Below are positions 16,800 through 58,298 of a stretch of DNA of 64,000 bases, in pieces. Every line of letters begins with the position of its first letter. The stretch's first letter is position 1. The position numbers were made by a program, and so were the translations under genes. Source of the stretch: a virus; the IMG/VR virus record IMGVR_UViG_3300028298_000007, positions 1-64,000 of that record. One strand, 5' to 3'. The notes under the pieces were generated by a model. The model had not been told where the DNA came from, searched no databases, and saw nothing but the letters and a program-made list of their open reading frames with translations.

Positions 16800-16877
16800 G
16801 CGAGGGTAGTGAAGCGGCCCATCACGCCAGTTACCGCATATAACTGGAGATCGCTGGTTCGAATCCAGCCCCTCGCT
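16800..16877 (+). tRNA. tRNA with enlarged anticodon arm (possibly Cys-GCA)
   Basis: The acceptor stem is GCGAGGG/CCCTCGC (7 bp). The D stem is GTGA/TCAC with GG in the loop. The T arm is GCTGG-TTCGAAT-CCAGC and the variable loop is 5 nt. The anticodon arm (16826-16846) is odd: CCAGT/ACTGG encloses 11 bases, or two extra pairs give a 7-bp stem and the loop CCGCATA. In the latter the anticodon would be GCA, but position 33 is C instead of the near-universal U. CCA is not encoded. It may be a non-standard, decoy or degenerate tRNA. Confidence 0.7.
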
Positions 16878-16887
16878 ATAAATTATG

Positions 16888-17035
16888 TTCCCTAAGACAG
16901 GAATTTACCCTTCAGGTGGAAACGGAGCGTTCATACCGCTAGCGGCGCCTACCGAGCTGCCAATAAGCTCCTGTCGCGCCTCCTTTTGGCCTCGGAAGTT
17001 GTTTTCCAGTTTCTAGCTTCCGCTGTCTTGGGGAA
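16888..17035 (+). ncRNA. structured leader RNA upstream of the ACP-like gene
   Basis: TTCCCTAAGACAG (16888-16900) pairs over 13 positions with CTGTCTTGGGGAA (17023-17035), one pair being G-U. The same GACAG bases can instead pair with TCCTGTC (16969-16975), extended by three more pairs past an internal loop. Inner hairpins include GAGCT/AGCTC (near 16953-16969) and CGGAAG/CTTCCG (near 16993-17022). Mutually exclusive pairings ending 7 bases before the ribosome site suggest a switch. It follows the tRNA directly, so co-transcription is likely. Confidence 0.5.
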
Positions 17036-17057
17036 TATAATAAAGGAGTTTTTTAAA

Positions 17058-17300
17058 ATGATTGATACTAAAGTAGCATTGTTAGAATTCATTGCTGATA
17101 ATGCAGGGATCAATATAGACATAAAAGAAGATGATACTCTAAAAGAAGATTTGAGTTTCGATGAATTAGACATAGTAGAAATGGTAATGGCCTTAGAGGA
17201 AGAATTTAATATAGAAATAACGGATGAAGAATCGGAAAAATTTATTTCAATAAAGGATATAATAGATTATCTCGAAGACAAAAATATAATCTTAAATTAA
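17058..17300 (+). CDS. acyl-carrier-protein-like protein lacking the attachment serine
   Basis: This 80-residue acidic four-helix protein closely follows the ACP pattern at helix [28 protein letters not shown], then a C-terminal helix DIIDYLE. In ACPs helix II is led by Asp-Ser-Leu, whose Ser carries 4'-phosphopantetheine. Here the tripeptide is Asp35-Glu36-Leu37. Without the Ser it cannot be a normal carrier, so it may be a structural mimic or regulator of host lipid enzymes or of ACP partners. The start at 17058 has AAAGGAG. The upstream leader is strongly structured. Confidence 0.75.
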
Positions 17301-17311
17301 GGAGATCAGCT

Positions 17312-19897
17312 ATGACTGGTATCAGCACCTTCGTTAAGCTGTTCTCCGGCAGAAAAGATGTAGTTGGAATAAACCAGTTCTGCTTAAAAGAACCGCTTAC
17401 TAAAGAAAAATATCAAAAGCATATAGATGGCGTTCAGCGCATAGGAGTTTATCCTATATACGATAGCAGCCTGACAAACTGGCTGGCCGTAGATTTAGAT
17501 GAGGATAATTTTGAAAAGGCATTATCAATAAAACAAAAGGCGGAAAGCCTTAATTTAAAAGTATGGATGGAGCGTTCTAAAAGCAAAGGATACCATTTAT
17601 GGACATTCTTTGATAAACCTATTTCCGCAGTAGAACCGCGGCTTGTGTTTGAAAGCATACTGGAAGAACTCGGGATCAAATGCGAAATCTTTCCAAAGCA
17701 AGATGAAGTAGCTGAAAACCAGTTCGGTAACTTTATCTTCCTGCCTCTGTTCGGAGGCGATACCAAGAACGGCCGTACTGTTTTTGTCGATGATAAGAAT
17801 AATCCAATTATCGATAACATCAAGGACATCGATAAAATTAAAGTTACCAAATCCTACATCATTACTTCCCTGATATTCTTGAGAAAACTTGAACGCAAGA
17901 AAATAATCATTACTGAAACCACCGAAGAAAGAAAAACGCATGCCAAGGACCTACCCTGTATAGATAGAATAAAACAAGGCGTGGCTAAAGGCCACCGCGA
18001 TAATTGCTGCTTCCGGTTAGTAATTAATTACAAAGAAAAAGGAATGGGGCAAACCGATATTGAAACCCTAATCAGTTCTTGGAATTTAAAGAATAAAGAA
18101 CCGTTGCCGGTAAAGGACTTACTTAAAATAATAAATTCCGTATTTAAAGGCGGATATAAAAGTTTTGGTTGCGATGATCCGATAATCCAGAATTACTGCA
18201 ATAAAGAAACCTGCCCACTCACTGATTCCCAAAGGCGCAAGGAACAAATCGAACAAGGTATTATCACTATGGTTTTTCGCGACAACGAAACTATGGTCTT
18301 CAGGAAAAAGAATTATGAGTATCGCTTGGCCGGGTTTGAATTTACCAAGAATAGTAAATTTAAAGTATCGCTAACATTATCTAAAGACGGAAAAATTCTC
18401 TATAAGGATCTGATAAAACTCGATATGGCCTCTAATCGGCAGCGTTTTGTCAAGGCGGCCGAAGATAATGAAATAGACGCCGACTTGATTAAACTCGATG
18501 ATCTAATCAAAAAACAATTAGAAAAAGAAGAACATGATAAATTGACTGCGCCGAAGCAGCTTTATATCATGACTGAAGCTGAAAAGAACGAAACAATTAA
18601 ATATTTAGAGAATACTCCTAATTTATTATATCGTGTTATTGATGTTACTAACCGCATGGGAGTAGTCGGCGAAGAAGTGGTAAGGTTAATGGTTTATTTA
18701 TGTTACACTTCCCGGATCATGAAAGACCCATTATCTATTACGGTGAAAGGAGAATCTTCTAGTGGAAAATCATTCGCCTGTCAAAACGTGCAAAAACTTA
18801 TTCCGGAAGAAGGATATCACTTTATTACTCGCGCTACTCAGAACGCTTTCTTTCATCTGCAGGAAGATGGGATGCAGCATAGGATTATCTACATCAATGA
18901 ATTACCGGGCTCTGAAGGTGCAGATTATTCTATCCGTACCGCACAATCTGAAGGCGACCTGATTTTAATGATGCCGGTAAAAGATCCGGCCACAGGTGAT
19001 ATGGAAACTGTAACTAAGCGCGTCAAAGGCCCGGTAGGATTTTTAATCACTACCACTAAGGCTTCAATGTTTGATGAGAATGAAACCCGTAACTTCTCAA
19101 TTTTTAGCGATGACTCTCCGCAATTAACCAGCGCTATCGGAAATATTACAATCCGCAAAGCCCAGGGCGAAGAATTTATCATTGAGGCTAAAGAACTGAA
19201 TTTATGGAAAAATATACAACGCCTATTAAATCCTGATTTCAAAGTGATTATTCCTTACGCTAAGGAAGTATTTTCTGCCTTCCCTGATAAGCCGGTAAGG
19301 ATCAGGCGCGACCGGGAACGCTTCCGAGTATTGATTGAGATTATCACGATACTGCATCAATTCCATAGAAAACAGGAAAAAACAAAAACCGAGAAAATAC
19401 ATCTAATGTCAACCTTAGCCGATTATTATGTCGCTAAAGTCGTGGCTGAGGCGATATTGACTTATACGATTTATGAGATAGGTCCTAGTGCCGAAGAATT
19501 ATGGAAAGCAATCAAGGCCATGTCTGAAAACTGGAAACCGGATAATCCTACTGATGAAGAATCGGAATTTGAATTCAAGCACCGGGACCTGGCCGAATAT
19601 ATGGACTGGAAAGTCGAGAAAGTGAAGAAATGGATGTATGTCTTAGTGCATGCCGGCATGGTTGATTATGCGGAAAAAGGTTTCGGCGGTAAAGGCAAAG
19701 CCTCGGTATTCAAAATTTCTAAGCGCGGCCTAGAATGGTCTAGCGATAACTTGGGATTTCTGCCTGCAATAGAAACATTGATTGACAAATACCCATGTGA
19801 TAAATCACAATTTTATAATCCGATTTCAGGGCATGCTGTTAACCCTAAACATGCGGAAGCGCCGGAAGGATTGCTTGAAGGAGCGAATAATGAGTAA
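17312..19897 (+). CDS. TOTE-type archaeo-eukaryotic primase fused to helicase
   Basis: This is an 861-residue protein. The N-terminal domain has the AEP catalytic residues in WLAVDLDED (Asp61, Asp63) and SKGYHLW (His95), as in TOTE-conflict primases. A Cys cluster follows near 290 (CDDPIIQNYCNKETCPL). The second half is a P-loop ATPase with GESSSGKS (480-487) and a Walker B-like IIYINE, then a winged-helix-like region. It should synthesise primers and unwind DNA at the fork, making it the main replication initiator candidate. AAGGAG precedes the start. An iteron-like region lies directly downstream. Confidence 0.85.
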   Translation: MTGISTFVKLFSGRKDVVGINQFCLKEPLTKEKYQKHIDGVQRIGVYPIYDSSLTNWLAVDLDEDNFEKALSIKQKAESLNLKVWMERSKSKGYHLWTFFDKPISAVEPRLVFESILEELGIKCEIFPKQDEVAENQFGNFIFLPLFGGDTKNGRTVFVDDKNNPIIDNIKDIDKIKVTKSYIITSLIFLRKLERKKIIITETTEERKTHAKDLPCIDRIKQGVAKGHRDNCCFRLVINYKEKGMGQTDIETLISSWNLKNKEPLPVKDLLKIINSVFKGGYKSFGCDDPIIQNYCNKETCPLTDSQRRKEQIEQGIITMVFRDNETMVFRKKNYEYRLAGFEFTKNSKFKVSLTLSKDGKILYKDLIKLDMASNRQRFVKAAEDNEIDADLIKLDDLIKKQLEKEEHDKLTAPKQLYIMTEAEKNETIKYLENTPNLLYRVIDVTNRMGVVGEEVVRLMVYLCYTSRIMKDPLSITVKGESSSGKSFACQNVQKLIPEEGYHFITRATQNAFFHLQEDGMQHRIIYINELPGSEGADYSIRTAQSEGDLILMMPVKDPATGDMETVTKRVKGPVGFLITTTKASMFDENETRNFSIFSDDSPQLTSAIGNITIRKAQGEEFIIEAKELNLWKNIQRLLNPDFKVIIPYAKEVFSAFPDKPVRIRRDRERFRVLIEIITILHQFHRKQEKTKTEKIHLMSTLADYYVAKVVAEAILTYTIYEIGPSAEELWKAIKAMSENWKPDNPTDEESEFEFKHRDLAEYMDWKVEKVKKWMYVLVHAGMVDYAEKGFGGKGKASVFKISKRGLEWSSDNLGFLPAIETLIDKYPCDKSQFYNPISGHAVNPKHAEAPEGLLEGANNE

Positions 19898-31597: not shown

Positions 31598-32593
31598 TTA
31601 TGCGCTAAAGCTGCTTGAGCTGCTGGAATTAGAAGAACTACTCATACTGCTCGAACTACTTGAACTACTTGAACTCGAAGATCTGCTCGAAGAACTGGAA
31701 CTGCTCGATCTGCTCGAAGAACTGGAACTGCTTGAACTAGATGAACTGCTGGAACTGCTTGAACTAGATGAACTGCTGGAACTGCTTGATTGGCTAGAAC
31801 TGCTTGAACTTATTGAACTGCTTGAGAAACTTGAACTCGACGAACTGCTGGAACTACTCGATAATGAAGAACTACTTGAAGAACTCGAACTGCTTGAACT
31901 AGATGAACTGCTGGAACTGCTTGATTGGCTCGAACTGCTTGAACTAGACGAACTACTCGATTGGCTCGAACTGCTTGAAGAACTTGAACTGCTTGAAGAA
32001 CTTGAATGTCCGTCTATAGGAACATAAGTTGTCCACCTATCTTCTATCAAAGATATTCCTGTATGCAATAATTGATAGGAAGCTAATTGCCGGCTTAATT
32101 GATCTTCTGCAAAACACATACGCATATAATATTCATAACTAACTAGTATTGCGCCGGCTACAGGCGCGGTATTAAAATCTATATAAGATATTTCATTAAC
32201 GAAATCATTAGTTAATACGTAATTGGTAGTGGCAACTCCGCCTACAGTACAAGAATGATTAGCGGCCGTATCTACAGGAAAATTAAATAAGATAAACCTA
32301 GTGGTAGAATTATTCGCGTCTCCGATAGGCTCATCAGTAGTAGCATATTCAGTAAGGACCTTAATTAAAAAATAATCATACATTCCTTTGCGGGAAATAT
32401 AAAAATTCCAGATTAAATCCATGGCCGCCTTGGTCAGGAAACGACAGGTAAGTTTATAACCCCTTAGGCCATCCTCCCAGAGCGCATCCCTATACTTCTT
32501 GCCATTTTCTGATTCAGTAACATTCGTATTGAAAGCAATACTTTCTTCTAATCCGAATTCAGGAGTTAATGTAAGTATATGTTCATAACTCAA
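31598..32593 (-). CDS. DUF2460-like tail protein with polyserine tail
   Basis: A 331-residue protein. Residues 1-195 match the distal-tail DUF2460 layout (FGLEESIAFNTNVTESENGKKYRDALW, RFLTKAAMDLIWNFYISRKG). Residues 197-329 are nearly all Ser with rare Q, L, F, I, R, M and N. The tract is disordered and probably exposed on the virion. It is one of five such proteins in the window. Confidence 0.75.
   Translation of the reverse strand: MSYEHILTLTPEFGLEESIAFNTNVTESENGKKYRDALWEDGLRGYKLTCRFLTKAAMDLIWNFYISRKGMYDYFLIKVLTEYATTDEPIGDANNSTTRFILFNFPVDTAANHSCTVGGVATTNYVLTNDFVNEISYIDFNTAPVAGAILVSYEYYMRMCFAEDQLSRQLASYQLLHTGISLIEDRWTTYVPIDGHSSSSSSSSSSSSSSQSSSSSSSSSSSQSSSSSSSSSSSSSSSSSSSSLSSSSSSSSSSSFSSSSISSSSSSQSSSSSSSSSSSSSSSSSSSSSSSSSSRSSSSSSSSRSSSSSSSSSSSSMSSSSNSSSSSSFSA
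31601..32005 (-). repeat. polyserine-encoding low-complexity tract
   Basis: Mixed AGC/AGT/TCN codons repeat with near-27-bp periodicity, encoding residues 197-331 of the DUF2460-like protein. Confidence 0.8.
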
Positions 32594-35765: not shown

Positions 35766-36779
35766 TTAGGCGCTTTGAGAACTAGAACTCGATGAAGAAC
35801 TCATACTGGAACTAGAACTCGAGCTCGAAGAACTTGAGGAAGCCCCTAATGTTATAGTCATTTCATCGTTACCTGCGTCAGAATTCTTGCAAATCTCACA
35901 GGTGGCGTTCATTATTCTTATTCCGCCTCGATCTCCTTCCTTAAGTCCGGTATATCTGACTGCCGGCAGAGAAAATTCTATGGAGTTGCCATTTGAATCA
36001 TTGACTATGATTGATACGGCCATAGTTGCCCGGGACATAATCTTAGAATAAAAATCATGGTCGGTAGTCGCGACTAATTCAGGATCAAAGGTTAATACCG
36101 GATTCCTACCGGTAATTTTGGCATAATCAATGCCTGAGGCGTCTTGTGGTTTAGGCGAAATTACTATTTCATTCTGCATATCTATTTCGCAAGCATCCAG
36201 CACTAACGCGTCGCCGTCAATCATGACTGTAGCTCCCATAAATACAAAAGGTACCTGAGTCGGATATGTCGGACTCAACATTGATTGGTCGCTATGTTCT
36301 GAATATTTTCCCTGCATGGCAAATTCGCAGAATATAGGTTCGCCTACTTTAAACTGGAATTTTACGTTGCCGGCGCAACCCAGCATTGTTTTTCTAAAAC
36401 CATCTTCATATTTAGCGATAGTGCATGTCGGAAAGCTACTGGATATCGGAGCAAAAATATTTGAAACTCCTGCTGAAAGCGACTCACTCCATCCACAGGC
36501 CCTTAAGAATGGCGTTATCGGCAAGGTAGTACCCTTAGATCCGGAAGCAGGCCCCATCAATTCAGCCTTAAAAGTTAAGGCCATTTTCCTTGCGCCGGGC
36601 TCAGAAACGAACCTAGACATATGCTTTACTACCGGATTTCTTTTAAACTGCTCAAATTCAGCATCCATTACAGGATCATAAGCTAATATTGTTGCCTGCG
36701 CTGCTGCTAATGTTTCAGCCACACCACTAGTGGTTTCCACTTTCCCGGCCAATTGCGCTATGCGTGATATTTTTGCCAC
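35766..36779 (-). CDS. major tail tube protein with short polyserine tail
   Basis: A 337-residue beta-rich protein starting MAKISRIAQLAGKVETTSG, with a tube-like core and Cys near the end. Residues 314-337 are Ser-rich (12 Ser, Met, 8 Ser, Gln-Ser-Ala). Copies in hundreds per virion would stud the tail with serine tails. Size, order and neighbours support the tube assignment. Confidence 0.75.
   Translation of the reverse strand: MAKISRIAQLAGKVETTSGVAETLAAAQATILAYDPVMDAEFEQFKRNPVVKHMSRFVSEPGARKMALTFKAELMGPASGSKGTTLPITPFLRACGWSESLSAGVSNIFAPISSSFPTCTIAKYEDGFRKTMLGCAGNVKFQFKVGEPIFCEFAMQGKYSEHSDQSMLSPTYPTQVPFVFMGATVMIDGDALVLDACEIDMQNEIVISPKPQDASGIDYAKITGRNPVLTFDPELVATTDHDFYSKIMSRATMAVSIIVNDSNGNSIEFSLPAVRYTGLKEGDRGGIRIMNATCEICKNSDAGNDEMTITLGASSSSSSSSSSSSMSSSSSSSSQSA
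35769..35840 (-). repeat. polyserine-encoding tract
   Basis: Encodes the last 24 residues of the tail tube protein, mixed Ser codons with one Met and one Gln. Confidence 0.8.
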
Positions 36780-38684: not shown

Positions 38685-39932
38685 CTAAACTGCGCTTTCT
38701 ACATAGACATCAAATATCTTGAAGAACGCGCCTGAAACACCTCCGAACTCAAGCGACTTAATACCGCTTTCAGTAGCAGTTATTTCTACCTTGACATATC
38801 TACCATTCTTAGGCGTACAAGCTACTTCTTTCCAAACAGTAGTATCTTGCCATTCCGAAATAGCAAGGGCGACTGCAGTACCCCAATTGCCATTAGTTTC
38901 GCTGACATAGATATTAATATTGGTAGGATCGCAGCTTAAATTACCGCCTGAGCGTCCTCTGACTTGCTGTACATTATAGATATTGCCTAAGTCGATAACA
39001 AACTCATGAGTTTCATTAACCGTATGTTTCCATACATTCGTACCGGCCAAAGCATTTTCAGGAGTTGTATCTCCGCCGTCATCGCCGCAGTGAGATTCGA
39101 GATATGTATTATCTATCCCGAGCCATCCGGTTGTAGTAGAACTGCTCGAAGAAGAACTAGACGAACTGCTTGACGATGAACTGCTCGAACTAGACGAACT
39201 GCTTGAACTTAATGAACTGCTCGAACTAGACGAACTGCTTGAACTTAATGAGCTTGAGCTAGATGAACTGCTAGAGCTGCTCGAAGAACTTGAACTGCTT
39301 GAGCTGCTCGAACTAGACGAACTGCTTGAACTTAATGAGCTTGAGCTAGATGAACTGCTAGAGCTACTCGAAGAACTTGAACTCGAAGAACTTGAACTCG
39401 AAGAACTTGAACTAGATGAACTTCTAGAACTGCTCGAAGAACTTGAACTGCTTGATTTACTTGAACTAGATGAACTGCTAGAACTTCTGGAACTGCTGGA
39501 ACTACTGGAACTGAATGAACTGCTGGAGCTACTTGAAGAACTAGAACTGCTAGAACTGCTCGAAGAACTAGACGAACTTGATCCAGTTCCAGTTACAGTT
39601 ACATTAAGTGCATGCCAATAAGTTCCATCACACCAGAACTCAGCATTTTCATATTTTCCTATCTGCGCCGTATCATAACTTCCGCCGCCGCCGTTAAAAC
39701 CAGCCGTAACAAAAACATAGCCCTGGCTAGTAGTGGTTACCTGTATATTGACACCTTTAAGTTTAGCGCTCGCGGCGGGTAAAGTTAACTTGATATTTCC
39801 GGTAGTTAACTTTATAAAAAGATAACCACTCTCCAGAATATCATCTTCTGTAAGAGTATAGTCTGCGGTCTTTGTGAGAGTTGTTCCTCTCTTGTTTGCA
39901 ACAGAATATTTATATCTAGTAGGTTTTGGCAT
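38685..39932 (-). CDS. virion decoration/fibre protein: N-domain, polyserine linker, F5/8C-like domain
   Basis: This is a 415-residue, three-part protein. Residues 1-116 are a beta domain homologous to the next upstream gene (39956-40300). Residues 118-265 are nearly pure Ser. Residues 266-415 look like a discoidin (F5/8 type C) sugar-binding fold: GIDNTYLESHCGDDGG, FVIDLGNIYNVQQVRGRSGG, YVKVEITATESG. The layout suggests a capsid- or tail-anchored protein presenting a carbohydrate-binding head on a long serine stalk. Confidence 0.75.
   Translation of the reverse strand: MPKPTRYKYSVANKRGTTLTKTADYTLTEDDILESGYLFIKLTTGNIKLTLPAASAKLKGVNIQVTTTSQGYVFVTAGFNGGGGSYDTAQIGKYENAEFWCDGTYWHALNVTVTGTGSSSSSSSSSSSSSSSSSSSSSSFSSSSSSSSRSSSSSSSSSKSSSSSSSSSSRSSSSSSSSSSSSSSSSSSSSSSSSSSSSSLSSSSSSSSSSSSSSSSSSSSSSSSSSSSLSSSSSSSSSSSLSSSSSSSSSSSSSSSSSSSSSSSSTTTGWLGIDNTYLESHCGDDGGDTTPENALAGTNVWKHTVNETHEFVIDLGNIYNVQQVRGRSGGNLSCDPTNINIYVSETNGNWGTAVALAISEWQDTTVWKEVACTPKNGRYVKVEITATESGIKSLEFGGVSGAFFKIFDVYVESAV
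39138..39581 (-). repeat. polyserine-encoding tract
   Basis: Encodes residues 118-265 of the decoration/fibre protein; short repeats of mixed Ser codons with scattered L, R, K and F codons. Confidence 0.85.
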
Positions 39933-43372: not shown

Positions 43373-45022
43373 TTATTTTTTTAATGTCCAAAAGTCAGAG
43401 TTAATACTCTCTCTTTTTGCGATAAATATTCCTTTAAGTTTATCGCCTGAAAACTCTATTGTTTTCTCTAACTCTGTTGACTCTAAAATAGATACTTTAC
43501 CTTTATCTAAATTTCTTTCCCAAAGTGGCATAGATGTTGGGTTAAGTTGACTTAAAGGTGGCAAAAATGCTATTACTTTAGATTCACTATATTTATCAAA
43601 TTTCGATAGTTTTATATAAAAAACTGATTCTTTAAAGTTTTCATTTAACAAATCTTTATCTAAAATCATATCAATACCTAAATCGGTAGCAATAATAAAA
43701 TCTTCTATCTTAGGAACTGACTTATTCCACCTAGTATAGTAAGCAAATTCGCCAAATTTCCTTTCGGCTTCTTTCATCTTAATATCAAACTTATATCCGC
43801 GGTAATCAATACCGCTGTCTTTTAATGCTTTTAACGTATCAAAAGCTTGCTGGCCTCCATCAGGTTGAACTATAATATATTTATATTCAGTAAATTTATC
43901 AAAAAGTTCTAACGCAAAAGGAGATAACTTTTCCGGTTGGAAGTTGGTAGTCCCAGCCTCAATCATTTTCTTTACGCAATTATAAAATGATTGTTTTAAC
44001 TGCTCAAAATCCTGTTTTACTTCTTCCCCGCGCCTTTTAGCGGCATATAGTTTAAGGATTTGCTTTAATTCTTCCTGATGATCTTTACTTTCCTCAAGTC
44101 TTATATCGGACTGATTGATAAAATCCAAGACCTCTATCATTTCTGCATTATCAAAACAAGATGTCGATAGATACGAACTATTCTGCTGTATAGGATAATT
44201 CGTAACTACCAATTCATTCTTTCTGGTCATATGGCCTGAACTAGGTGCCGCTAGATTATATTGAGAAAGTATCTTGCGGTTGTATTTTGCCTCTTTCCAA
44301 CCATCACAAACTTCGTAAGTAACCATCCACTTACCGGGAATAGTCTTAGTGAAGGATTCAAATTCTTCCTGCGTAGGACACCATTTCCAATTCATCTTTG
44401 CGCTAGGATATGGCGGATCAAGGAAAGTAAAAGATTCTGCGGTAGAATATTTTTTAACAAAATCCTTATAGTCCATATTTTCTATAGTTACGCCGGCCAA
44501 TCTTTCTTTTATCTTGGCCAGTCGCGTAGTTAATTTCATTACCTCGCCTTCGGCCCTATCATCGTAGGAGCGCATTTCGCCGGCATCGCTTGCTGCCTTG
44601 ATATAGACATAGCGGTAGAACTGGTAAACTGGGTCTTTATTTGTCGGACTTTCTTTATATTCACCGAGTAATTTATTAAATGTTTCCTTAGACGTCTTCC
44701 AGTCCATTTTATTCAATTCTTCTATCTGCTGGTCAGTGATATTCTGCATGAACTTAAAACACGAAACAATCTCAGAATCCTTGTCATTAATAAACTCTTC
44801 CGATCCTTTATTCTTCCTGAATAATACGCTTCCGCCACCTATAAATGGTTCGACATACCTTTTGTGTTCAGGAAACATTGATATTAACTTTCCAGCCACG
44901 AAGAACTTTCCACCGGGGGAGCCAAAAGCAGGTTTTACGCCTTCATTAATTTTCTCATTAGAGATTAAGTCTATTTTATCCAAAGAAAAATCTTCTAATA
45001 ACGGTAGTAAAAAATTATTCAT
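43373..45022 (-). CDS. Dam-like N6-adenine methyltransferase with extra C-terminal domain
   Basis: This is a 549-residue protein. Residues 35-290 match D12-class Dam enzymes: FVAGKLISMFPEH, YVEPFIGGGSVLF (motif I), and FLDPPYPSAK (motif IV DPPY). The C-terminal 250 residues have no recognised fold: helical to about 370, then alpha/beta with YKYIIVQPDGGQQAF and YYTRWNKSVPKIEDFIIATDLG. A methylase between portal and capsid genes, where head morphogenesis genes usually sit, is odd. The start at 45022 is fixed by AGGAGG and overlaps the portal stop. Confidence 0.8.
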   Translation of the reverse strand: MNNFLLPLLEDFSLDKIDLISNEKINEGVKPAFGSPGGKFFVAGKLISMFPEHKRYVEPFIGGGSVLFRKNKGSEEFINDKDSEIVSCFKFMQNITDQQIEELNKMDWKTSKETFNKLLGEYKESPTNKDPVYQFYRYVYIKAASDAGEMRSYDDRAEGEVMKLTTRLAKIKERLAGVTIENMDYKDFVKKYSTAESFTFLDPPYPSAKMNWKWCPTQEEFESFTKTIPGKWMVTYEVCDGWKEAKYNRKILSQYNLAAPSSGHMTRKNELVVTNYPIQQNSSYLSTSCFDNAEMIEVLDFINQSDIRLEESKDHQEELKQILKLYAAKRRGEEVKQDFEQLKQSFYNCVKKMIEAGTTNFQPEKLSPFALELFDKFTEYKYIIVQPDGGQQAFDTLKALKDSGIDYRGYKFDIKMKEAERKFGEFAYYTRWNKSVPKIEDFIIATDLGIDMILDKDLLNENFKESVFYIKLSKFDKYSESKVIAFLPPLSQLNPTSMPLWERNLDKGKVSILESTELEKTIEFSGDKLKGIFIAKRESINSDFWTLKK

Positions 45023-47435
45023 TAATAGCCTCCTCTGTTTCTTCCTGTTCATTTTCCATATCAACACCTAACTGATTTATTACCGCATTGATTACAGTCT
45101 TTGCCTGTTTGTCTGTAATCCATTTTTTATCGGAAGCCTGGACAAGTCCTCCGACTAATCCATTCATAGCCTCAGCAACGCCTTTATTATCCCGAGATAC
45201 TATAGGAGAAGGTATTACGGTAAAACTTCTATCAACATCTTTCTTCAATGTACCGGCAATTATAGCCTGATCTATAGCAAAATTAAACATATGCTTAATC
45301 ATAAATTTTACTTTTTTCTGTTTTGATTTTAAATTTTTTAAAGTCGGAAGTCCCATTTCCATCGCAGTTTGAAGTTGTATTGCGATTTTACCATTTCTAC
45401 GAGTAATCATAAATTGATAAGGCATACTAAAACAATAAACCTTACCATTGTATTGTTCTTTTTGAATATTAGATTCGTATCGTTTTCCTCTGTTATTAAC
45501 TTGTATTCTATTTCTTAAATCTCTTTCAATGATATTGCTACCACTAATAATGTTCCATTTAAACTTTCCTTTTATGGAAATGGAAGTCCTTGAAGAATAT
45601 CCAAGAAGTAAACAAATAATTTGAAAATCATCCTTTAATTGATTTGAATTTGTAGAATAATTGAAACAATTTCTGCCTTTTCTTTTATCAAATGAACCAT
45701 CTCCTGCCATCATAGATTTAAAAAGAATTTCTAAGTATGGTTTATCTAACTGCAATATATCTTTCGGTATTCTTTTTTCTTTACTTACACAACCAATATT
45801 TTCTTTAAGATAGTGCCAAAGAGATTTATTACTAATATTAAAAACTGTAACACCTTTACCATTATCAGATTCATTGGCCTGAAATCCAATTTTTTTCAGT
45901 AAGTTTCGTATAATTTTAACATTATATTCTTTTTTTTGAGCTATTCTGACACAAAATCTATTTTTAGCATTATTAAGATATCCTTCTGAAAGATACCAAC
46001 CAAGAAAATCTACCCAATCTTTCATCACGAATTTTCTTGGACTATCTTTTATTCTTGATTGAATATCATAAGAAATATAAGGTAATTCAAAATATTCTTG
46101 TTTTTTACCAATCCAATTTTTTGCGCCTTCTTTGATATAAAATGTTTTATATGTTATATCTTTTGCCTGAATAATCTCAAATTTTCTTCCTTTATGCGCT
46201 TCTTTAATCCACATTCTATGTTCAGGCGTTACTAAAATATCTGTTCTTGTATTAGTAAAATGATACATTTCTCCTTTATAATCATAAAGATATATATTGC
46301 CTTTAGGTTTACAGAATTCAATTCTATCTTTATCAGGATTAAAAGTAGCTAATTTTTCTCCTTTTTTAATTTCCCAATATTTTTTCCATCCATTTTCAGT
46401 TAAAGTTTCTGTATCTTCACTATAACAGGCGCGAGTAGTGCGGCTTCCTTCGGCAAACCAATGTTCGGGATATCCTGCTCCACCTAATATCTGATTTTTG
46501 AATAGCCTTGCTTCTTCTGAAGCGTCAGCCCCTTCTAACTTCGGAGTTTCAGATTTCCATTTAATCTTATCATTATGCGCTCTTATTGAACCTGGCCTAG
46601 GAGTAGCCAAAGTCTTGACAAATTCCTGTAATTCTTCTTTGGACATCCCTTCGCACTCAATATCCCATATAAAAGTATTTATCAAAAATGCTCTCTCAAG
46701 CCTAGCAAAAAGAAATTGGTCATAGCCATCCAGCCAATCAGCTAAGCGCAATAACGTACTTCTACCGCGTGTAGCAGAACTTACTTTATTAATGGTAAAA
46801 TAGAAACAATCTCCGACTAATTTTCCGTAAGATTTTGATTTTAGATTTTTATCGATATTAATAATGCTTAATTCTCTTTCAACTTGACCAGTTGGTTTTC
46901 TCCATATAAGTGTTTTATTGAGTTTAGCGTTATAAGGATCTTTCTTTATTTTTAATATTGTCTTAGGATCCATATAACTTAATTTAACAGCGCCATCAGC
47001 TGAATTAACCCAGACCGGTAAACAAAGTTCTCCGAAAAGATAAAGTTCAACAACATTAATATTCATTTCTTCATCAAGATTATTATCCGGATCATTCCAA
47101 AAATTATCTAATACTTCCTTTACGTCCTTATCTTTAGCTGTAAAAGTAAAACCATCTCCGATTACAAAATCTTCGATGATTTCAATTATACGGCCGGCCA
47201 TAGGGTTGCTATCATATAGGTAAAACGCTATATCCTGCATTCTGCGCTGCGTAAGCAGATTAAGGTCCCTATGCTGGTTAGTAGTCAATGAACGCCATAA
47301 TGCGTCATCACTTGATCCGCCTACCATTGGATATGATTCGTCTATCTTGCGTAAAATCTCAACATGCCTTTTTTCGCGTTCCTTGAAATCTACTACAACA
47401 TTTTTTGATTCATCTGCTTTTACTTTTTTTTTCAT
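45015..47435 (-). CDS. portal protein interrupted by an intein
   Basis: An 806-codon gene. Extein parts are residues 1-336 and 690-806 (453 residues joined), typical of portals: SYPMVGGSSDDALWRSLTT, MAGRIIEIIEDFVIGDGF, TRGRSTLLRLADWLDGYDQFLF, and QILGGAGYPEHWFAEGSRTTRA joined to TAMEMGLPTLKN. The junction site is a conserved portal motif, a common place for inteins. Twelve portals form the DNA gate of the head. Order TerS-TerL-portal confirms it. Confidence 0.85.
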   Translation of the reverse strand: MKKKVKADESKNVVVDFKEREKRHVEILRKIDESYPMVGGSSDDALWRSLTTNQHRDLNLLTQRRMQDIAFYLYDSNPMAGRIIEIIEDFVIGDGFTFTAKDKDVKEVLDNFWNDPDNNLDEEMNINVVELYLFGELCLPVWVNSADGAVKLSYMDPKTILKIKKDPYNAKLNKTLIWRKPTGQVERELSIINIDKNLKSKSYGKLVGDCFYFTINKVSSATRGRSTLLRLADWLDGYDQFLFARLERAFLINTFIWDIECEGMSKEELQEFVKTLATPRPGSIRAHNDKIKWKSETPKLEGADASEEARLFKNQILGGAGYPEHWFAEGSRTTRACYSEDTETLTENGWKKYWEIKKGEKLATFNPDKDRIEFCKPKGNIYLYDYKGEMYHFTNTRTDILVTPEHRMWIKEAHKGRKFEIIQAKDITYKTFYIKEGAKNWIGKKQEYFELPYISYDIQSRIKDSPRKFVMKDWVDFLGWYLSEGYLNNAKNRFCVRIAQKKEYNVKIIRNLLKKIGFQANESDNGKGVTVFNISNKSLWHYLKENIGCVSKEKRIPKDILQLDKPYLEILFKSMMAGDGSFDKRKGRNCFNYSTNSNQLKDDFQIICLLLGYSSRTSISIKGKFKWNIISGSNIIERDLRNRIQVNNRGKRYESNIQKEQYNGKVYCFSMPYQFMITRRNGKIAIQLQTAMEMGLPTLKNLKSKQKKVKFMIKHMFNFAIDQAIIAGTLKKDVDRSFTVIPSPIVSRDNKGVAEAMNGLVGGLVQASDKKWITDKQAKTVINAVINQLGVDMENEQEETEEAINE
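45369..46427 (-). mobile_element. intein with LAGLIDADG homing endonuclease
   Basis: Residues 337-689 of the portal frame. It begins Cys337 (CYSEDTETLTENGW, block A), with DILVTPEHRMW (block B), LAGLIDADG motifs FLGWYLSEGYL (477-487) and LFKSMMAGDGSF (571-582), and block F GKVYCFSMPYQFMITRRNGKIAI. The last two residues are Leu688-Gln689 before Thr690, where His-Asn or Gly-Asn is normal. Gln-ended inteins are known but rare. DNA here is more AT-rich than the exteins. Confidence 0.88.
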
Positions 47436-49899: not shown

Positions 49900-51033
49900 T
49901 TAATGTTCTTTAAATTTATAATCATAAGTATTATCTTTAAATTTATAATCATAAGTATTATCTTTAAATTCAACTTTATTTGGTAATGAAGAAGCCGAAC
50001 TGGAACTTGAACTCGATGAACTAGAAAAACTTGAACTGCTAGAAGAACTCGAGCTACTTGAACTAGATGAACTGCTCGAAGAACTTGAACTGCTGGAGCT
50101 ACTCGAAGAACTTGAACTGCTAGAACTACTCGAAGAACTTGAACTGCTGGAACTCAATGAACTGCTCGAAGAACTTGAACTGCTGGAGCTGCTCGAAGAA
50201 CTTGAACTGCTGGAACTGCTTGAAGAACTTGAACTGCTGGAACTGCTTGAAGAACTTGAACTGCTGGAACTCAATGAACTGCTTGAAGAACTTGAACTGC
50301 TGGAGCTGCTTGAAGAACTTGAACTGCTGGAACTGCTTGAAGAACTTGAACTGCTGGAACTGCTTGAAGAACTTGAACTGCTGGAACTCAATGAACTGCT
50401 TGAAGAACTTGAACTGCTGGAGCTGCTCGAAGAACTTGAACTGCTGGAACTGCTTGAAGAACTTGAACTGCTGGAACTGCTTGAAGAACTTGAACTGCTG
50501 GAACTCAATGAACTGCTTGAAGAACTTGAACTGCTGGAGCTGCTCGAAGAACTTGAACTGCTGGAACTGCTTGAAGAACTTGAACTGCTGGAACTCAATG
50601 AACTGCTTGAAGAACTTGAACTGCTGGAGCTGCTTGATGAACTTGAACTTCTGGAGCTGCTTGAAGAACTTGAACTGCTGGAGCTACTTGATGAACTTGA
50701 ACTGCTGGAGCTGCTTGAAGAACTTGAACTGCTGGAGCTGCTTGATGAACTTGAACTGCTGGAACTCAATGAACTGCTAGAACTACTAGAAGACCTAGAG
50801 GAACTAGAACTACTAGAACTGAATGAACTGCTAGAACTACTAAAGGAACTAGAAGAACTAGAACTACTAGAACTGAATGAACTGCTAGAACTACTAGAGG
50901 AACTAGAAGAACTAGAACTACTAGAACTGAATGAACTACTAGAACTACTAGAGGATAACGAACTGCTAGAGGACGATGATGAACTAGCATCCGTCGTTGC
51001 ATACATATTATCTATATAAAAAGTATTTGCCAT
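49900..51033 (-). CDS. almost pure polyserine protein
   Basis: A 377-residue protein. Residues 1-16 are MANTFYIDNMYATTDA, 17 to about 349 are Ser with regular F, L or R, and the end contains two tandem copies of a nine-residue unit FKDNTYDYK. There is no catalytic domain. An ATG with ribosome site and its length show it is a real gene. It is the longest Ser tract in the window and likely a highly exposed or modified virion filament. Confidence 0.75.
   Translation of the reverse strand: MANTFYIDNMYATTDASSSSSSSSSLSSSSSSSSFSSSSSSSSSSSSSSSSSFSSSSSSSSSSFSSSSSSFSSSSSSSSRSSSSSSSSLSSSSSSSSSSSSSSSSSSSSSSSSSSSSSSSSSSSSSSRSSSSSSSSSSSSSSSSSLSSSSSSSSSSSSSSSSSSSSSSSSSSSSSLSSSSSSSSSSSSSSSSSSSSSSSSSSSSSSSSSSSSSSLSSSSSSSSSSSSSSSSSSSSSSSSSSSSSSSSSSSSSSLSSSSSSSSSSSSSSSSSSSSSSSSSSSSSSSSSSSSSSLSSSSSSSSSSSSSSSSSSSSSSSSSSSSSSSSSSSSSSSSSSFSSSSSSSSSSASSLPNKVEFKDNTYDYKFKDNTYDYKFKEH
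49911..49964 (-). repeat. 27-bp tandem duplication
   Basis: Two exact or near-exact copies of a 27-bp unit encode the repeated nine-residue FKDNTYDYK near the C-terminus of the polyserine protein. Confidence 0.8.
49987..50985 (-). repeat. nested tandem repeats encoding polyserine
   Basis: The basic unit is 27 bp (9 Ser codons). A higher-order 117-bp unit repeats at 50153, 50270, 50387 and 50504, each marked by one Leu codon (antisense CTCAATGAA). A separate 54-bp array (50819, 50873, 50927) is marked by Phe codons. The structure indicates growth by unequal recombination or slippage. Confidence 0.85.
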
Positions 51034-52223: not shown

Positions 52224-53057
52224 TCATTTTTTAAGTAACCATTCTGTTATTGAACCATCTTGATATTCTTTTATATTAATTCTTTTAATAGGTAATTTTG
52301 TAAAACATTCTGCTTTAAAATCTCGTTCTAATAAACAAATTCTTTCTGGCGGTAGTATGCTTAATGCCGCATGAAAATTTCCAGAAACACAACATATGAA
52401 ATATGAACAATTTTGGATAATTCCTAAAAGTGTAGAAACTTTTGGAGGGATATCTCTAATATGCCTATCAATGAAATCATATCGTTCGTTAACAGGATTA
52501 TGAAACACATGTTTCATTAAAGTTTCTATAGGTATATATCCCGCTTCTTTTGTTTCCTGCCATACTTTTTTTGCTACATCATAAGGAACATTAGCACTAT
52601 CTGGTAAACAAGTAATCTGGAAATGAAATCCTACTAATCTATTTTTACCTTGCGTTAATTTCTTGTGGCCGTTTACTGGATCGATCCCGAGTTCATGTAC
52701 GCAACAATATTCACCTTTAGTCAATTCAATCTGGCCTTCGGACATTGGAAAATCTATATCCGCGATAATATCATACATGCTTTCCGGTAGGTCATTAAAA
52801 AAAGAACCGTCGATTAACCTTACGCATGTATCAGTTAAATCGGCGGTTACTTCTTGGAAACCCAAACCTTTTTGGACTGCCAGATCAAATATAACATCAG
52901 GAAACTGTTTTGTCAATGCCTCAAATGGATTTAAGAACATCACGAGATCTCCTAGGCCATGCCAAAATACAAGTAGCACGCGATTAGGTTTTAATTTTTC
53001 GATATATTGCGATAGTTTAGGTTTATCACATTCCCATAATCTTTGCAGTCTTAGCAT
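52224..53057 (-). CDS. GT9-like glycosyltransferase (heptosyltransferase-related)
   Basis: A 277-residue protein with RVLLVFWHGLGDLVMFLNPFEALTKQFPDV, the N-terminal Rossmann signature of GT9 heptosyltransferases (GxGDxxxxxP), and a C-terminal donor-site-like NCSYFICCVSGNFHAALSI. GT9 enzymes add heptose to LPS core. Here it is last in the phage glycan cluster. It could modify phage virion serines or host LPS. Confidence 0.7.
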   Translation of the reverse strand: MLRLQRLWECDKPKLSQYIEKLKPNRVLLVFWHGLGDLVMFLNPFEALTKQFPDVIFDLAVQKGLGFQEVTADLTDTCVRLIDGSFFNDLPESMYDIIADIDFPMSEGQIELTKGEYCCVHELGIDPVNGHKKLTQGKNRLVGFHFQITCLPDSANVPYDVAKKVWQETKEAGYIPIETLMKHVFHNPVNERYDFIDRHIRDIPPKVSTLLGIIQNCSYFICCVSGNFHAALSILPPERICLLERDFKAECFTKLPIKRINIKEYQDGSITEWLLKK

Positions 53058-53290
53058 TTTTTCTCCTTTAGTTTTTTAATCTGGTTTTTTCCAGACTTAA
53101 TTAAAAATTTAAAAGTCCTATCAACCTTTAAAGAATTGATGAAATCTACATCCACAAACCCCCCGTAAGTAACTCCTTTATATACTATGGCAAATGCAAT
53201 ACAATCAACATCTGGCAATAGCATATTATTTTTACCGCTAGCTGTTTCTGTATGGAAAGGATTAAGTAATGACGGTATTTTATTCTTCAT
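53051..53290 (-). CDS. hypothetical protein
   Basis: A 79-residue protein with a beta-rich middle (DCIAFAIVYKGVTYGGFVDVDFI) and a Lys-rich end. The start at 53290 has GGAG upstream; the longer frame to 53326 lacks one. It overlaps both neighbours, within the glycan operon. Confidence 0.5.
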   Translation of the reverse strand: MKNKIPSLLNPFHTETASGKNNMLLPDVDCIAFAIVYKGVTYGGFVDVDFINSLKVDRTFKFLIKSGKNQIKKLKEKKC

Positions 53291-54266
53291 ATGGTAACTC
53301 CGGGTGTCTATAATTTTTATGTTCAATCTGAATTTTATAATCCAACATCTTCATAAAGTTCTCATAGAGCAAATTCATTGCGCCTTTGGCTTGATTATCC
53401 ATGTGTGCCATGGTTAATTCGGATTTATCTGCCTTCAAATATGCAGCAGCGCAGTTGTGCCGATTATCTAATTGGCAGCCACGCCACTTTTTATGGTAGT
53501 ATTGGCCATGATAACTGAAGATAGGAATACCGCATTCAGTTTTTATCAGACCGCGATCCATAATGGCGCGGATATAAGGCTTTAATAACTGTTCATTAGT
53601 GGCAAGCCATTGAATACCCGGTAAAACCACTGTTTTATCAGCGCTGCCTGCCTCAAGCAAGCATATATTCATAGCATCCATATCCGGCGCTTTAAAGTTT
53701 GTACCTTTCATTTCATTAAATCCTTCAATGAATATATTAAATGACTTTGCTAATGCATCACCCCAAATATTAGCGTCAATAAAAAGAGGGCAATTACAGA
53801 GATCAACCGGGTTATAATATCCTTGAGGAATTATCCACTTGCCATTAAATTGATGATGAGGATCATCATAAACCTTATTCTGTTCTTTACCGGAACATAC
53901 TACTAATCCGGTCTTTGCCGCAATCTCAAAATAATGAATAGGATCTCGGGTAAAAATCATATCCGCGTCTAATACACAAATTGCGTCATAATAAATACCT
54001 ATAGCGCTAGCATACCAATATCTCTTACGGCAAACAACCTCACTCAAACCATGCGCTGATTGAATTTCTTCTTCCATAATTTCTTTATAAAGAACCTTAA
54101 AACTTAATTTATCAAACTGGTCTAATACTTCTTGAGATATTTTATAACCAAAAAAATAAACATCCTGCTTATTACCTACATAATCAAGAGAGTTGAGTTC
54201 GGCAACAACTTCTGGTAAATATCTAATATCAGCGCATACTACAAATGCGTATTTAGATTTTTCCAT
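53280..54266 (-). CDS. GT8-like glycosyltransferase
   Basis: A 328-residue GT-A-fold protein with YDAICVLDADMIF, whose Asp-Ala-Asp binds metal and nucleotide sugar, and a later SYHGQYYHKKW that may complete the metal site. GT8 enzymes transfer glucose or galactose with retention. Part of the overlapping glycan operon (1-14 base overlaps). Confidence 0.75.
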   Translation of the reverse strand: MEKSKYAFVVCADIRYLPEVVAELNSLDYVGNKQDVYFFGYKISQEVLDQFDKLSFKVLYKEIMEEEIQSAHGLSEVVCRKRYWYASAIGIYYDAICVLDADMIFTRDPIHYFEIAAKTGLVVCSGKEQNKVYDDPHHQFNGKWIIPQGYYNPVDLCNCPLFIDANIWGDALAKSFNIFIEGFNEMKGTNFKAPDMDAMNICLLEAGSADKTVVLPGIQWLATNEQLLKPYIRAIMDRGLIKTECGIPIFSYHGQYYHKKWRGCQLDNRHNCAAAYLKADKSELTMAHMDNQAKGAMNLLYENFMKMLDYKIQIEHKNYRHPELPYEE

Positions 54267-55426
54267 TATAAATCTCCTTTACATTTAAACATTAAATAAT
54301 GGCTATTAGTTTCCCGTTCAGGATCGCCGCTCTCGCCTAAACATTCTATCTGGCTAAAACCGGCCTTCTCTAATAATTCTCTATGCGGACCTTCTTTACC
54401 TCCTAGGTTAGTTTCAAAATATAATATCTTGCATTTAGTCCTTAACATTTTTAAATATTCAAACCTATCTCCTTTTAAATGTCCTAATACAGCGCAGAAA
54501 AATATGATGTCAAAAGTATTATTCTTTAAACATATACCATCTTCAATATCATTAGGTAAGCAATGAATATCTGATCCTTCAGCATAAGCTAAAGCAGCGA
54601 CTAAATCTATTAATCTATGAGTATTATGATTTTGTTTTTCTATCGCTAATACGTATTTGGCGCCGCGCCTAGCCGCTTCCCGAGCCAGCATACCGCAAGA
54701 ACAGCCTAAATCGGCGACAATTAGTCCAGTAAAGTCTTCAGGAAAGAATTGTAGCCGTTTATTGCTTCTTGGCCCTTTACGTATCAATTTACCTTTGCAA
54801 TAGATATCCTGGTAACTATCCCAGTTGAAATCTATCTCTCTTTGGATGATATACTCTAAAGTAATGCCGCGTTCATTTAGATATCCTTGCATAAACGCAT
54901 CTTTATATTTTTTATTCATTTTATAAGGAAGCAAAATATATCTTACGATTTCTTCTTCCGGAAAATCAGTATAATAAAGTTTAGAGAAATCACAAAGCAT
55001 TACTCGGCCGTTATCTGCTTTTATAACATTACCATATTGTAAATCATGACTGGCAATGCTTAAACCTTTTGCATTTCTGATATTATGCATTTTGGCCATA
55101 TAAATTCCCCATTTATAAAAATCATTGGCTATGGCCGCTTCTTCTTGAAGAATAAAATCCGCGATTTCTTTGGCCGATTTATTTTGTATTTCTAATTCTA
55201 CTTTTTTATTCAAGAAGTCCTGCTGAATATGCAAAAAATCCTTGCCTTCAACCCACTCGCTTTCAATGGTAATGATTTCAGGTCCGGTTATGATATTCAA
55301 TATCTTAGGAATTTCTAAGCCTTGATCCTGTAAAAACTGTCTTATGGATATGGTATAGTCATTAATAAGAAGTTCTTTTATCTTCTTATTACCATCCCTA
55401 TATGCTTTAAAACCGTAATGTTCCAT
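54266..55426 (-). CDS. kinase-like domain fused to SAM methyltransferase
   Basis: This is a 386-residue protein. Residues 1-200 match small-molecule/Kdo kinases: EGKDFLHIQQDF, then HDLQYGNVI (HxDxxxxN catalytic loop, around residue 147) and LCDFSK (DFG-like). Residues 220-386 are a class I methyltransferase with VADLGCSCGMLAREAARRGA (motif I). It may phosphorylate then methylate a sugar, as in capping of O-antigen chains by kinase-methyltransferase proteins such as WbdD. That parallel is inferred from domain order. Confidence 0.75.
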   Translation of the reverse strand: MEHYGFKAYRDGNKKIKELLINDYTISIRQFLQDQGLEIPKILNIITGPEIITIESEWVEGKDFLHIQQDFLNKKVELEIQNKSAKEIADFILQEEAAIANDFYKWGIYMAKMHNIRNAKGLSIASHDLQYGNVIKADNGRVMLCDFSKLYYTDFPEEEIVRYILLPYKMNKKYKDAFMQGYLNERGITLEYIIQREIDFNWDSYQDIYCKGKLIRKGPRSNKRLQFFPEDFTGLIVADLGCSCGMLAREAARRGAKYVLAIEKQNHNTHRLIDLVAALAYAEGSDIHCLPNDIEDGICLKNNTFDIIFFCAVLGHLKGDRFEYLKMLRTKCKILYFETNLGGKEGPHRELLEKAGFSQIECLGESGDPERETNSHYLMFKCKGDL

Positions 55427-55969
55427 TTATTTTATGATATACCAGGTAAAATCATCTCCGGTTATAATCCTATCGTCAAACCTTTCTTTAATAATTTCGG
55501 TAAGTGGGTGGCATTGTAAATAATCATGCCCACCAAATATCCCTCCCGGCTTGACTAACGGATAATATAATTCCAAATCTCTGGTGATCCCACTCTTGCT
55601 ATGATCTCCGTCTATCCAGACAAAATCAAATCCTTCTTTAGTAAACCTATCAGAAACATCAGAACTTTTATGCTGAATAATTATTACTCTATTTTTATAC
55701 TCAGGTACCATAAGTCGTTTTATAGCATGCGATTTATTATTATCATGATATGATTGCGGTTGGCCGGCCTCATACGGCTCATCACCGGGAGGAACTTGAT
55801 CTCCTTCGCGGTGTTCCCAAGGATCGATTGTATATAGGAAACAATTAGGGAGTGCCGATAATATCGCCACAGTTAAATCGGCGCATTTAGTGCCGATTTC
55901 AATCCCCGTAACCCTTACATCCTTAAAATGACGCTTGAATAAATCTTGGACTACTGCTGATTGCATCAT
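55427..55969 (-). CDS. class I SAM methyltransferase (Methyltransf_24-like)
   Basis: A 180-residue protein with VTGIEIGTKCADLTVAIL (motif I), YTIDPWEH (motif II) and FDFVWIDGDHSKSGITRDLELYYPLVKPGGIFGGHDY, the pattern of sugar O-methyltransferases such as those for macrolides and glycolipids. The HD pairs bind metal. Probably methylates a glycan made by the cluster. Confidence 0.8.
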   Translation of the reverse strand: MMQSAVVQDLFKRHFKDVRVTGIEIGTKCADLTVAILSALPNCFLYTIDPWEHREGDQVPPGDEPYEAGQPQSYHDNNKSHAIKRLMVPEYKNRVIIIQHKSSDVSDRFTKEGFDFVWIDGDHSKSGITRDLELYYPLVKPGGIFGGHDYLQCHPLTEIIKERFDDRIITGDDFTWYIIK

Positions 55970-56517
55970 AGTAAACCTCTGTTTTTATTTAGCCATTCAG
56001 CTAAATATACCTCATTTTCTATATGGACATGATTATCACTTAAACTCATATTCAAAAATCCTTCACTATCGGCGTATTTATCGTAAACATCTATGAAAAC
56101 AAACTCGGATTCACTTAATTTCTTATTCATATATTTGACATAATCCAACCGTTCGATATCCGATCCTAAGAATGGAAATCCAGCGTTTTCAGAAGCTAAT
56201 GAGCGTCGCGGAGGCGGTACTACATTATAAATCAGGATATTCTTATTTACCGCAGCATTTAACCTTATCGTATCTAAATAATTCTTTACCAATATATCTA
56301 TTGTGTTCTGCCAGGGCTGGTATTTATGAACATGGCACCTGCAATCAATCTCACCCCAACAAAAAACAATACCAGCATCGATTGGTATATCTTTAACCAA
56401 TATCGGTTTAGATAACCCTAAACTATGCATTGTCATAGGCCCGCAGGTCCTAGTGATAACTCCGGGTATTTTAAGCCATGCATGCCAGCAATGACTGTCG
56501 CCTATGGTATATATCAT
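55966..56517 (-). CDS. SGNH/GDSL-like hydrolase
   Basis: A 183-residue protein with YTIGDSHCW (Gly-Asp-Ser-His, block I), FCWGEIDCR (block III region) and SDNHVHIEN near the end holding Asp and His of the triad. SGNH enzymes add or remove acyl groups on sugars. Here it may edit the glycan. It overlaps its neighbours by four bases. Confidence 0.7.
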   Translation of the reverse strand: MIYTIGDSHCWHAWLKIPGVITRTCGPMTMHSLGLSKPILVKDIPIDAGIVFCWGEIDCRCHVHKYQPWQNTIDILVKNYLDTIRLNAAVNKNILIYNVVPPPRRSLASENAGFPFLGSDIERLDYVKYMNKKLSESEFVFIDVYDKYADSEGFLNMSLSDNHVHIENEVYLAEWLNKNRGLL

Positions 56518-57482
56518 TTTGGCCTTTTTATAAAACCTTTTTCATAAACATCTGAACTAATTTCTGGTATCATATTATTGAATTTTTCCATAAAAGATTT
56601 AACTAAATTATAATTATATTCTATCTTATCAATAACATCTTTACTGTTTTTATGTATATCAAGTTCTGAAGCGATCCGGCCTTCCTGCCACCAGCGACAA
56701 TGCCAACCGTAAAGTTGCTGACCTATACTATTAAATATTGTATCTCCAGTGGGACCTATCCGCAATAAAGTTTCAGCCCAAATAGAATCGCATACCCATA
56801 GATACCTATCTAGACCTAAAATTCTATCCTTAGGAACATGTTTACAGATAGACCTATTATGACAGATCATCGGATGCGTGGCTTCTCCTTTAAACGGGTC
56901 TTCTGTCTGGAAATTGACTAAATCAAAAAAAACTTCCGAATATTGATATCCAGAAAAGTTTATAGAATCAAAAGCGGCGCACATCGACCTATCCCAAATT
57001 CCTTTATCATTACCGAAAGGCATATCTTGAACCTTAGCAAAGCTGAATGGAAATTCACCGGAAATAAATATACCGGATTCGGATATCTTAAAATAAATAT
57101 CTAAATTCGCAAAAACAAACTGATCTGCCTGCAGCAAACAAACAGATTTATACTTACCTTCTTTTAATAATTTTCGCGCCAATAAAGAAACAGGAAACCA
57201 TGGATCAAGCATAGGATATGCTTGATTACTTCTTTTATCTACAAAACTATTTTTATATTCAGATATTAACGTATCTAATCTATACCAATTTACATTGAAT
57301 GGAAATGCTTCTGTGATTCTTTCTCTATGTCTAGGATCCCATAGATCATCATGGACTATCTCCCAATCGGCATTAGTTTTGAAATAATTCTGTGCGTTCA
57401 TAGTTGAAATTAATCCAAAACTATAAGCGTTAGAAGAACCAACTATAAATGCGTAATCGCTTTTAGGTTTCATTCTTTCCAA
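56514..57482 (-). CDS. glycosyltransferase-like protein
   Basis: A 322-residue protein with a GT-A-like start and YKSVCLLQADQFVFANLDIYF, where Gln-Ala-Asp replaces the DxD motif. The middle has many aromatic residues (YGWHCRWWQEG). It could be an active GT with a variant metal site or an accessory. No close family is recognised. Confidence 0.55.
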   Translation of the reverse strand: MERMKPKSDYAFIVGSSNAYSFGLISTMNAQNYFKTNADWEIVHDDLWDPRHRERITEAFPFNVNWYRLDTLISEYKNSFVDKRSNQAYPMLDPWFPVSLLARKLLKEGKYKSVCLLQADQFVFANLDIYFKISESGIFISGEFPFSFAKVQDMPFGNDKGIWDRSMCAAFDSINFSGYQYSEVFFDLVNFQTEDPFKGEATHPMICHNRSICKHVPKDRILGLDRYLWVCDSIWAETLLRIGPTGDTIFNSIGQQLYGWHCRWWQEGRIASELDIHKNSKDVIDKIEYNYNLVKSFMEKFNNMIPEISSDVYEKGFIKRPK

Positions 57483-58147: not shown

Positions 58148-58298
58148 TGAATTCCATTCTTTCTTGTATTGTAGGCAGTCTTTCCCGGTCGCATTTCTTA
58201 TGGCACTCTTGGTTTATACATACCATAACGCTGTATCTAGACATATTATGTGTCCTTTGTTCAACTTTTATTTTCTGTTTAGGACAATCGTCTTCCAT
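58140..58298 (-). CDS. small Cys-containing protein
   Basis: A 52-residue basic protein with CPKQ, VCINQECHKKCDR, a possible zinc site. Its start overlaps the previous TAA (TAATG), and its stop overlaps the methyltransferase start, so it is embedded in the operon. Confidence 0.5.
   Translation of the reverse strand: MEDDCPKQKIKVEQRTHNMSRYSVMVCINQECHKKCDRERLPTIQERMEFNG

Follow-up and report, generated by a model that had tools for sequence, protein, structure and literature searches.

A phage acyl carrier protein homologue with glutamate in place of the phosphopantetheine serine: a candidate unmodifiable mimic

Phage genes for acyl carrier proteins (ACPs) are as a rule taken for acyl carriers or for helpers in metabolism when they are annotated. 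The acpP genes of Rhodobacteraceae prophages (PMC8224337) are phage-borne ACP genes of this kind, reported to encode carriers for fatty-acid synthesis and accompanied by fabG and fabF in three prophages. A different role is known from the mitochondrial ACP (mACP) of Plasmodium falciparum, an essential ACP homologue that is purely a protein partner: its phosphopantetheine (PPant) serine is replaced by Phe, and it stabilises Isd11-Nfs1 without PPant (PMC8547962). The authors of that study, on Ser-less mitochondrial ACP, found no case outside Apicomplexa except in one chromerid (PMC8547962). Here we describe an ACP-like protein encoded in a 64,000-nucleotide stretch of viral DNA (positions 1 to 64,000 of IMG/VR record IMGVR_UViG_3300028298_000007; hereafter the window). 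It shares with bacterial AcpP (PF00550, TIGR00517) the four-helix fold, the docking residues of helix II, size and acidity; unlike AcpP, it has Glu for the PPant serine, scores under the AcpP equivalog cut-offs and is no carrier by the known mechanism. In contrast to the prophage acpP genes, the window gene has neither the serine nor fab neighbours. It resembles Plasmodium mACP in being an ACP homologue with the PPant serine replaced, yet the apicomplexan proteins have Phe, Cys or Gly at the site, belong to a eukaryotic organelle and have Isd11 as their partner, whereas the window protein has Glu. The 'acyl carrier protein' homologues of Ackermannviridae phages (for example CBA120 orf142; PHROG 5934/4154), annotated simply as ACP, likewise have an acidic residue, Glu or Asp, at the site, together with the same docking helix. 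These differ from the window protein in their longer N-terminal region (about 103-113 aa in total), fixed location in the family and known hosts, and the likeness is one of site and docking helix, with no specific kinship claimed. Our literature search for phage ACPs without the serine or for ACP decoys found no description, and bacterial and phage Ser-less ACPs appear to be unrecognised in the searchable literature.

The features on which the analysis rests are as follows.

16882..17041, + strand: structured RNA, phage backbone element, left border of the inserted gene (fold z -5.3, homologue in the related virus L327)
17043..17048, + strand: Shine-Dalgarno AAGGAG of the ACP-like gene (read from the sequence)
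17058..17300, + strand: ACP-like gene, 80 aa, Glu for the PPant serine (PF00550, PHROG 5934, predicted ACP fold, Foldseek)
17160..17168, + strand: Asp35-Glu36-Leu37 (GAT GAA TTA), the altered Asp-Ser-Leu motif (sequence, alignments)
17163..17207, + strand: helix II, residues 36-50, the docking helix with D38, E41, M44, E47 and E48 (predicted helix, conserved columns)
17312..19897, + strand: primase gene (AEP-TOTE, PriCT_1), right flank of the insertion (Pfam)

The open reading frame runs from an ATG at 17058 to a TAA stop at 17300 (80 codons), has a GC content of 27% (window, 38%) and a GC3 of 24%, and its product is an ACP homologue. It matches Pfam PF00550 (PP-binding) with E 8e-8 and 32.8 bits, above the gathering cut-off of 20.8, which places it in the superfamily, and PHROG 5934, 'acyl carrier protein', with E 2e-15. 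AcpP-type models of NCBIfam match down to E 2e-17, all under the family cut-offs: the best reaches 62.9 bits against a cut-off of 71, and TIGR00517 61.2 against 70.45. A PDB search matched B. subtilis ACP with E 2e-13. The initial annotation had called the helix II region nearly canonical, which is borne out for helix II itself; over its full length the protein is about 38-41% identical to E. coli or B. subtilis ACP. A structure prediction had also been proposed. The AlphaFold2 model, which drew on related ACPs (48 aligned sequences), has a mean pLDDT of 83.7, with helices at residues 4-16, 36-50, 56-60 and 65-74 that make up the four-helix ACP fold, and Foldseek aligns it to solved ACPs with TM about 0.8-0.86. 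The replacement of Asp-Ser-Leu by Asp-Glu-Leu is seen both in the sequence, where the Glu36 codon is GAA (17163-17165), and in the alignment with B. subtilis ACP, where D-E-L takes the place of the canonical D-S-L. Helix II of the model begins with Glu36, and no serine is left at the start of that helix, so the known route to 4'-PPant is closed. With the PPant serine replaced, the protein is unable to carry an acyl chain, in agreement with the earlier statement that it cannot be a normal acyl carrier.

A sequencing error had been named as one way in which this observation could fail. At least two base changes separate GAA from any Ser codon, and Glu also occurs in the closest phage relative of the window ACP (virus G005; L366/L369), which comes from a separate assembly, is 44% identical and has an Asn-Glu-Leu motif, Asp35 being replaced by Asn. 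A single base-calling error is therefore excluded. G005, whose primase is 58% identical to that of the window, is a diverged phage of the same lineage, and its ACP is the single relative found in that lineage. Whether relatives keep Glu thus has a divided answer: the closest one does, and wider relatives mostly have Ser. A scan blind to the site (patterns [VG]MALEEE and I[KY][DN]IIDY) gave 16 confirmed relatives, with Ser in 15 and Glu only in the G005 copy.

A primase search returned 15 related viruses, with primases 58-74% identical, and an ACP frame lies beside the primase gene in none of them (0/15). When the whole records of seven of the 15 were searched for an ACP, the only match was in G005, away from the primase and in a run of genes, among them those for a sulfotransferase and a CmcI-type methyltransferase. 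An RNA homologue is found at the same position in L327 (3477-3640), a relative without the ACP gene; it shares 76% mean column identity and a similar branched fold with the window RNA (z -3.8 versus -5.3), and the RNA therefore belongs to the phage backbone. As related phages are without the ACP gene at this locus, we conclude that it is a cargo ('moron') gene inserted between the conserved structured RNA and the primase gene. The proteins flanking it are Pam3 gp33/gp34-like and the primase. No inverted repeats bracketing the insertion were found at the settings used, and a nucleotide search of the phage collection gave no match. The window ACP is the only PP-binding domain in the record, in which the holo-ACP synthase family (PF01648) has no match. 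An ordinary ACP or auxiliary metabolic gene was rejected as an identification because there is no Ser, no PPTase and no fab gene; phage acpP genes of the auxiliary metabolic kind are recognised by fatty-acid synthesis genes or a PPTase nearby, and neither is present.

Several further features of the window were recorded. The RNA at 16882-17041 (+), about 160 nt long, has a closing stem of about 19 pairs and several inner hairpins, lies between a tRNA-Cys and the ACP gene, and matches no Rfam family. The adjoining tRNA-Cys (16800-16877, +) has a tRNA-Met at its spot in the relative L316 (3904-3978) and only a terminator-like hairpin in other relatives. The portal protein gene (45018-47435, -) contains an apparent intein, with the portal profile at 41-169 and a match of another type at 332-443. 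Long poly-serine tracts occur in proteins of the virion region (31598-32593, 35766-36779, 38685-39932 and 49900-51033, -), and a run of methyltransferase genes together with unmatched ORFs resembling glycosyltransferases (52224-61130, -) possibly serves surface modification.

We then surveyed the residue at the PPant site in other ACPs using four codon-specific scans of IMG/VR, with a pattern that spans D-x-L and helix II. Ser was found at least 241 times, Ala 23, Glu 18 (the window included), Asp 6 and Gln 4 times, and other residues as single cases among the matches listed; as the scans select for a canonical helix II and the Ser count is a lower bound, these frequencies are no census. On inspection, a few of the rows with Glu, Ile or Arg turned out to be no ACPs (L014, L015, L084 and L295), and L017 is doubtful. 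Clustered at 80% and joined by named phages, the Ser-less set comprises Glu 16, Asp 5, Ala 5, Gln 3, Gly 1 and Leu 1. For codons starting with G, where the scan is complete, 13 of about 18 separate lineages are acidic, compared with an expected share of about 32% (binomial p about 5e-4), the lineage count being a judgement made by eye and the expectation BLOSUM-like. The acidic form also recurs in one family: the homologue of the Maynard ACP gene occurs in 270 phage records, essentially Ackermannviridae, and the syntenic family of these phages has Glu or Asp at the site in all 11 sequences read (D-D-L in CBA120), as does the ACP of Serratia 3M, another Ackermannviridae phage. The dN/dS of 0.09-0.27, measured within this family, indicates purifying selection there. 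A putative ACP is listed with one hit in a Vi01-like virion proteome (PMC10892097).

Glu-site ACP-like domains also occur within larger proteins. In two Aeromonas Ishigurovirus phages, Aswh_1 and ZPAH1 (L307:2962-4206 and L384:1462-2706), such a domain forms the N-terminus of RIIB, and others are found in Microcystis proteins. Streptomyces STAND-NTPase/TPR proteins (L356, L357) carry one at the C-terminus, and in a gammaproteobacterium (L355) one lies near a TIR/FGE-sulfatase gene; use of these bacterial domains in conflict systems is possible. In Planctomycetes (L333, L344, L362) they belong to proteins with lipoprotein-like N-termini, whose location is perhaps extracytoplasmic, which would make PPant transfer unlikely. 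One group of ACPs on viral contigs, with L-[GK]-G-D-x-L-D (for example L023, L030, L046, L293, L294, L297), has Ala, Asp, Gln or Leu at x, and never Ser in the rows seen.

A tree of 77 rows computed with the site masked requires 15 changes between Ser and non-Ser. Forcing all Glu/Asp versions into one clade fails the AU test (p-AU 0.002), while uniting all Ser-less rows is not rejected (AU p 0.24); the tree, over 78 columns, is poorly resolved and has long branches. Repeated origin of the acidic form is thus supported, the number of origins not being fixed by so weak a tree. We also compared the docking surface in Ser-less and Ser-bearing rows. As the search pattern itself required D35, L37, F50 and acids at 38, 41, 47 and 48, the comparison concerns the positions left free: Met44 is present in 23/31 Ser-less and 137/187 Ser-bearing rows, Asp31 in 23/31 and 150/187, Leu32 in 26/31 and 159/187, and a hydrophobic residue 54 in 30/31 and 182/187. 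Since these unenforced positions agree in the two groups, the docking surface is maintained where the prosthetic site has been lost. Beside the site there is a shift, Ala34 being rarer in Ser-less rows (8/31 versus 95/187, p 0.01). Met44 is of functional weight in E. coli ACP, whose M44I variant shows no binding to SpoT or fatty-acid enzymes (PMC3340395).

To explain these data, we propose that the cargo gene encodes an unmodifiable ACP mimic, which uses helix II to dock on a client of ACP, probably a host protein, and does no carrier chemistry; we put the probability of this reading at roughly 45%. With the ACP fold and the acidic docking surface kept and the PPant serine replaced, the protein would carry no acyl chain, and helix II would most likely be its means of docking on an ACP-recognising protein. 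As target, an ACP partner of the host is the simplest assumption: an enzyme of lipid or fatty-acid metabolism, AcpS, or a regulatory client of ACP. During infection the mimic would occupy this partner or keep it in a single state. Recognition of ACP by SpoT and fatty-acid enzymes relies on helix II and not only on the PPant arm (PMC3340395). Apo and holo AcpP stimulate MukB to the same degree (PMC8602292), and glycerol-3-phosphate acyltransferase is inhibited more strongly by apo-ACP than by holo-ACP (PMC3896788). On the other hand, SpoT does not bind apo-ACP (PMC3896788), S36T mutants of ACP lose IscS binding, and in E. coli ACP D35N abolishes it (PMC13343975). As some clients accept PPant-free ACP and IscS and SpoT do not, docking by helix II without carrier chemistry is the likeliest mode of action. 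The initial annotation had named SpoT, MukB and lipid enzymes together as targets of a decoy. Decoy action on the host is plausible; the targets are not equally likely, MukB fitting better than SpoT. Taken together, the data suggest that acid-for-serine versions in many unrelated phages bind ACP partners without ACP chemistry. Our inferences are three: binding of a partner by the window protein, a host origin of that partner, and a competitive effect.

Some observations speak against the mimic. The need of IscS and SpoT for PPant or Ser36 means that a retained surface is no guarantee of binding; the nearest relative, with N-E-L, is without the Asp35 on which IscS binding depends in E. coli; and the RIIB and STAND-TPR fusions indicate that a Ser-less domain can also act as an internal adaptor. 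The last point leads to the main rival, in which the Ser-less ACP fold serves another phage protein as subunit or docking domain, with no target in the host. Plasmodium mACP plays such a role for Isd11, the phage and Streptomyces fusions and other bacterial architectures would fit it, and the G005 copy sits among modification genes. Yet the gene stands by itself as an insertion whose neighbours are not conserved (the primase here, modification genes in G005, absence from other relatives). A subunit on which a core phage machine depends should tend to stay with its partner, and we regard this rival as possible, if on the unlikely side. A milder alternative concerns the residue only: once PPant is unneeded, Glu may simply stabilise the start of helix II, with no phosphate mimicry, in a mimic or an adaptor alike. 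Acidic side chains at helix starts are generally favourable in any protein, Glu36 occupies exactly such a position, and other replacements there include Ala, Gln, Gly and Leu. We found nothing specific against this explanation, which explains the acidic bias no worse than phosphate mimicry and is in our view somewhat more likely than not. The proposal that Glu36 imitates the phosphate of phosphopantetheine is for these reasons only a possibility.

Decay of a captured ACP that drifts without function would fit the low GC and the patchy presence in relatives, yet it is strongly disfavoured, as the frame is intact, a Shine-Dalgarno is present and the predicted fold is good; moreover, Glu is conserved in a diverged relative, the docking residues are kept, at least two base changes lead from Ser to Glu, and the analogous Ackermannviridae gene is under purifying selection. 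Hardest to credit is a carrier still at work, modified at another residue or through the Glu carboxylate. Carrier chemistry on Glu without PPant does exist in unrelated proteins, and Ser33 lies three residues upstream of Glu36 (D-L-S-F-D-E-L). Against this, Ser33 neither begins helix II nor stands in a D-S-L context, the nearest relative has Gln in its place (D-L-Q-A-N-E-L), and the record contains no PPTase or biosynthetic partner.

A wider form of the mimic proposal holds that acid-for-serine mimics, derived from ACPs time and again, form a recurring class of host-takeover proteins in phages, one that is under selection and locks host ACP clients in one state. We consider this wider claim improbable as it stands. 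The clients would belong to lipid synthesis, chromosome organisation, stress signalling or the ACP-like modules of bacterial conflict systems, and if it were true, the label 'acyl carrier protein' would misstate the function of hundreds of annotated Ackermannviridae genes. A sizeable group of phage ACPs is in any case unable to act as carriers by the known mechanism, including those of the well-studied Ackermannviridae, whose hosts are E. coli, Salmonella, Klebsiella, Dickeya and Serratia. As culturable phages of laboratory hosts carry the Ackermannviridae member, its partner should be directly findable.
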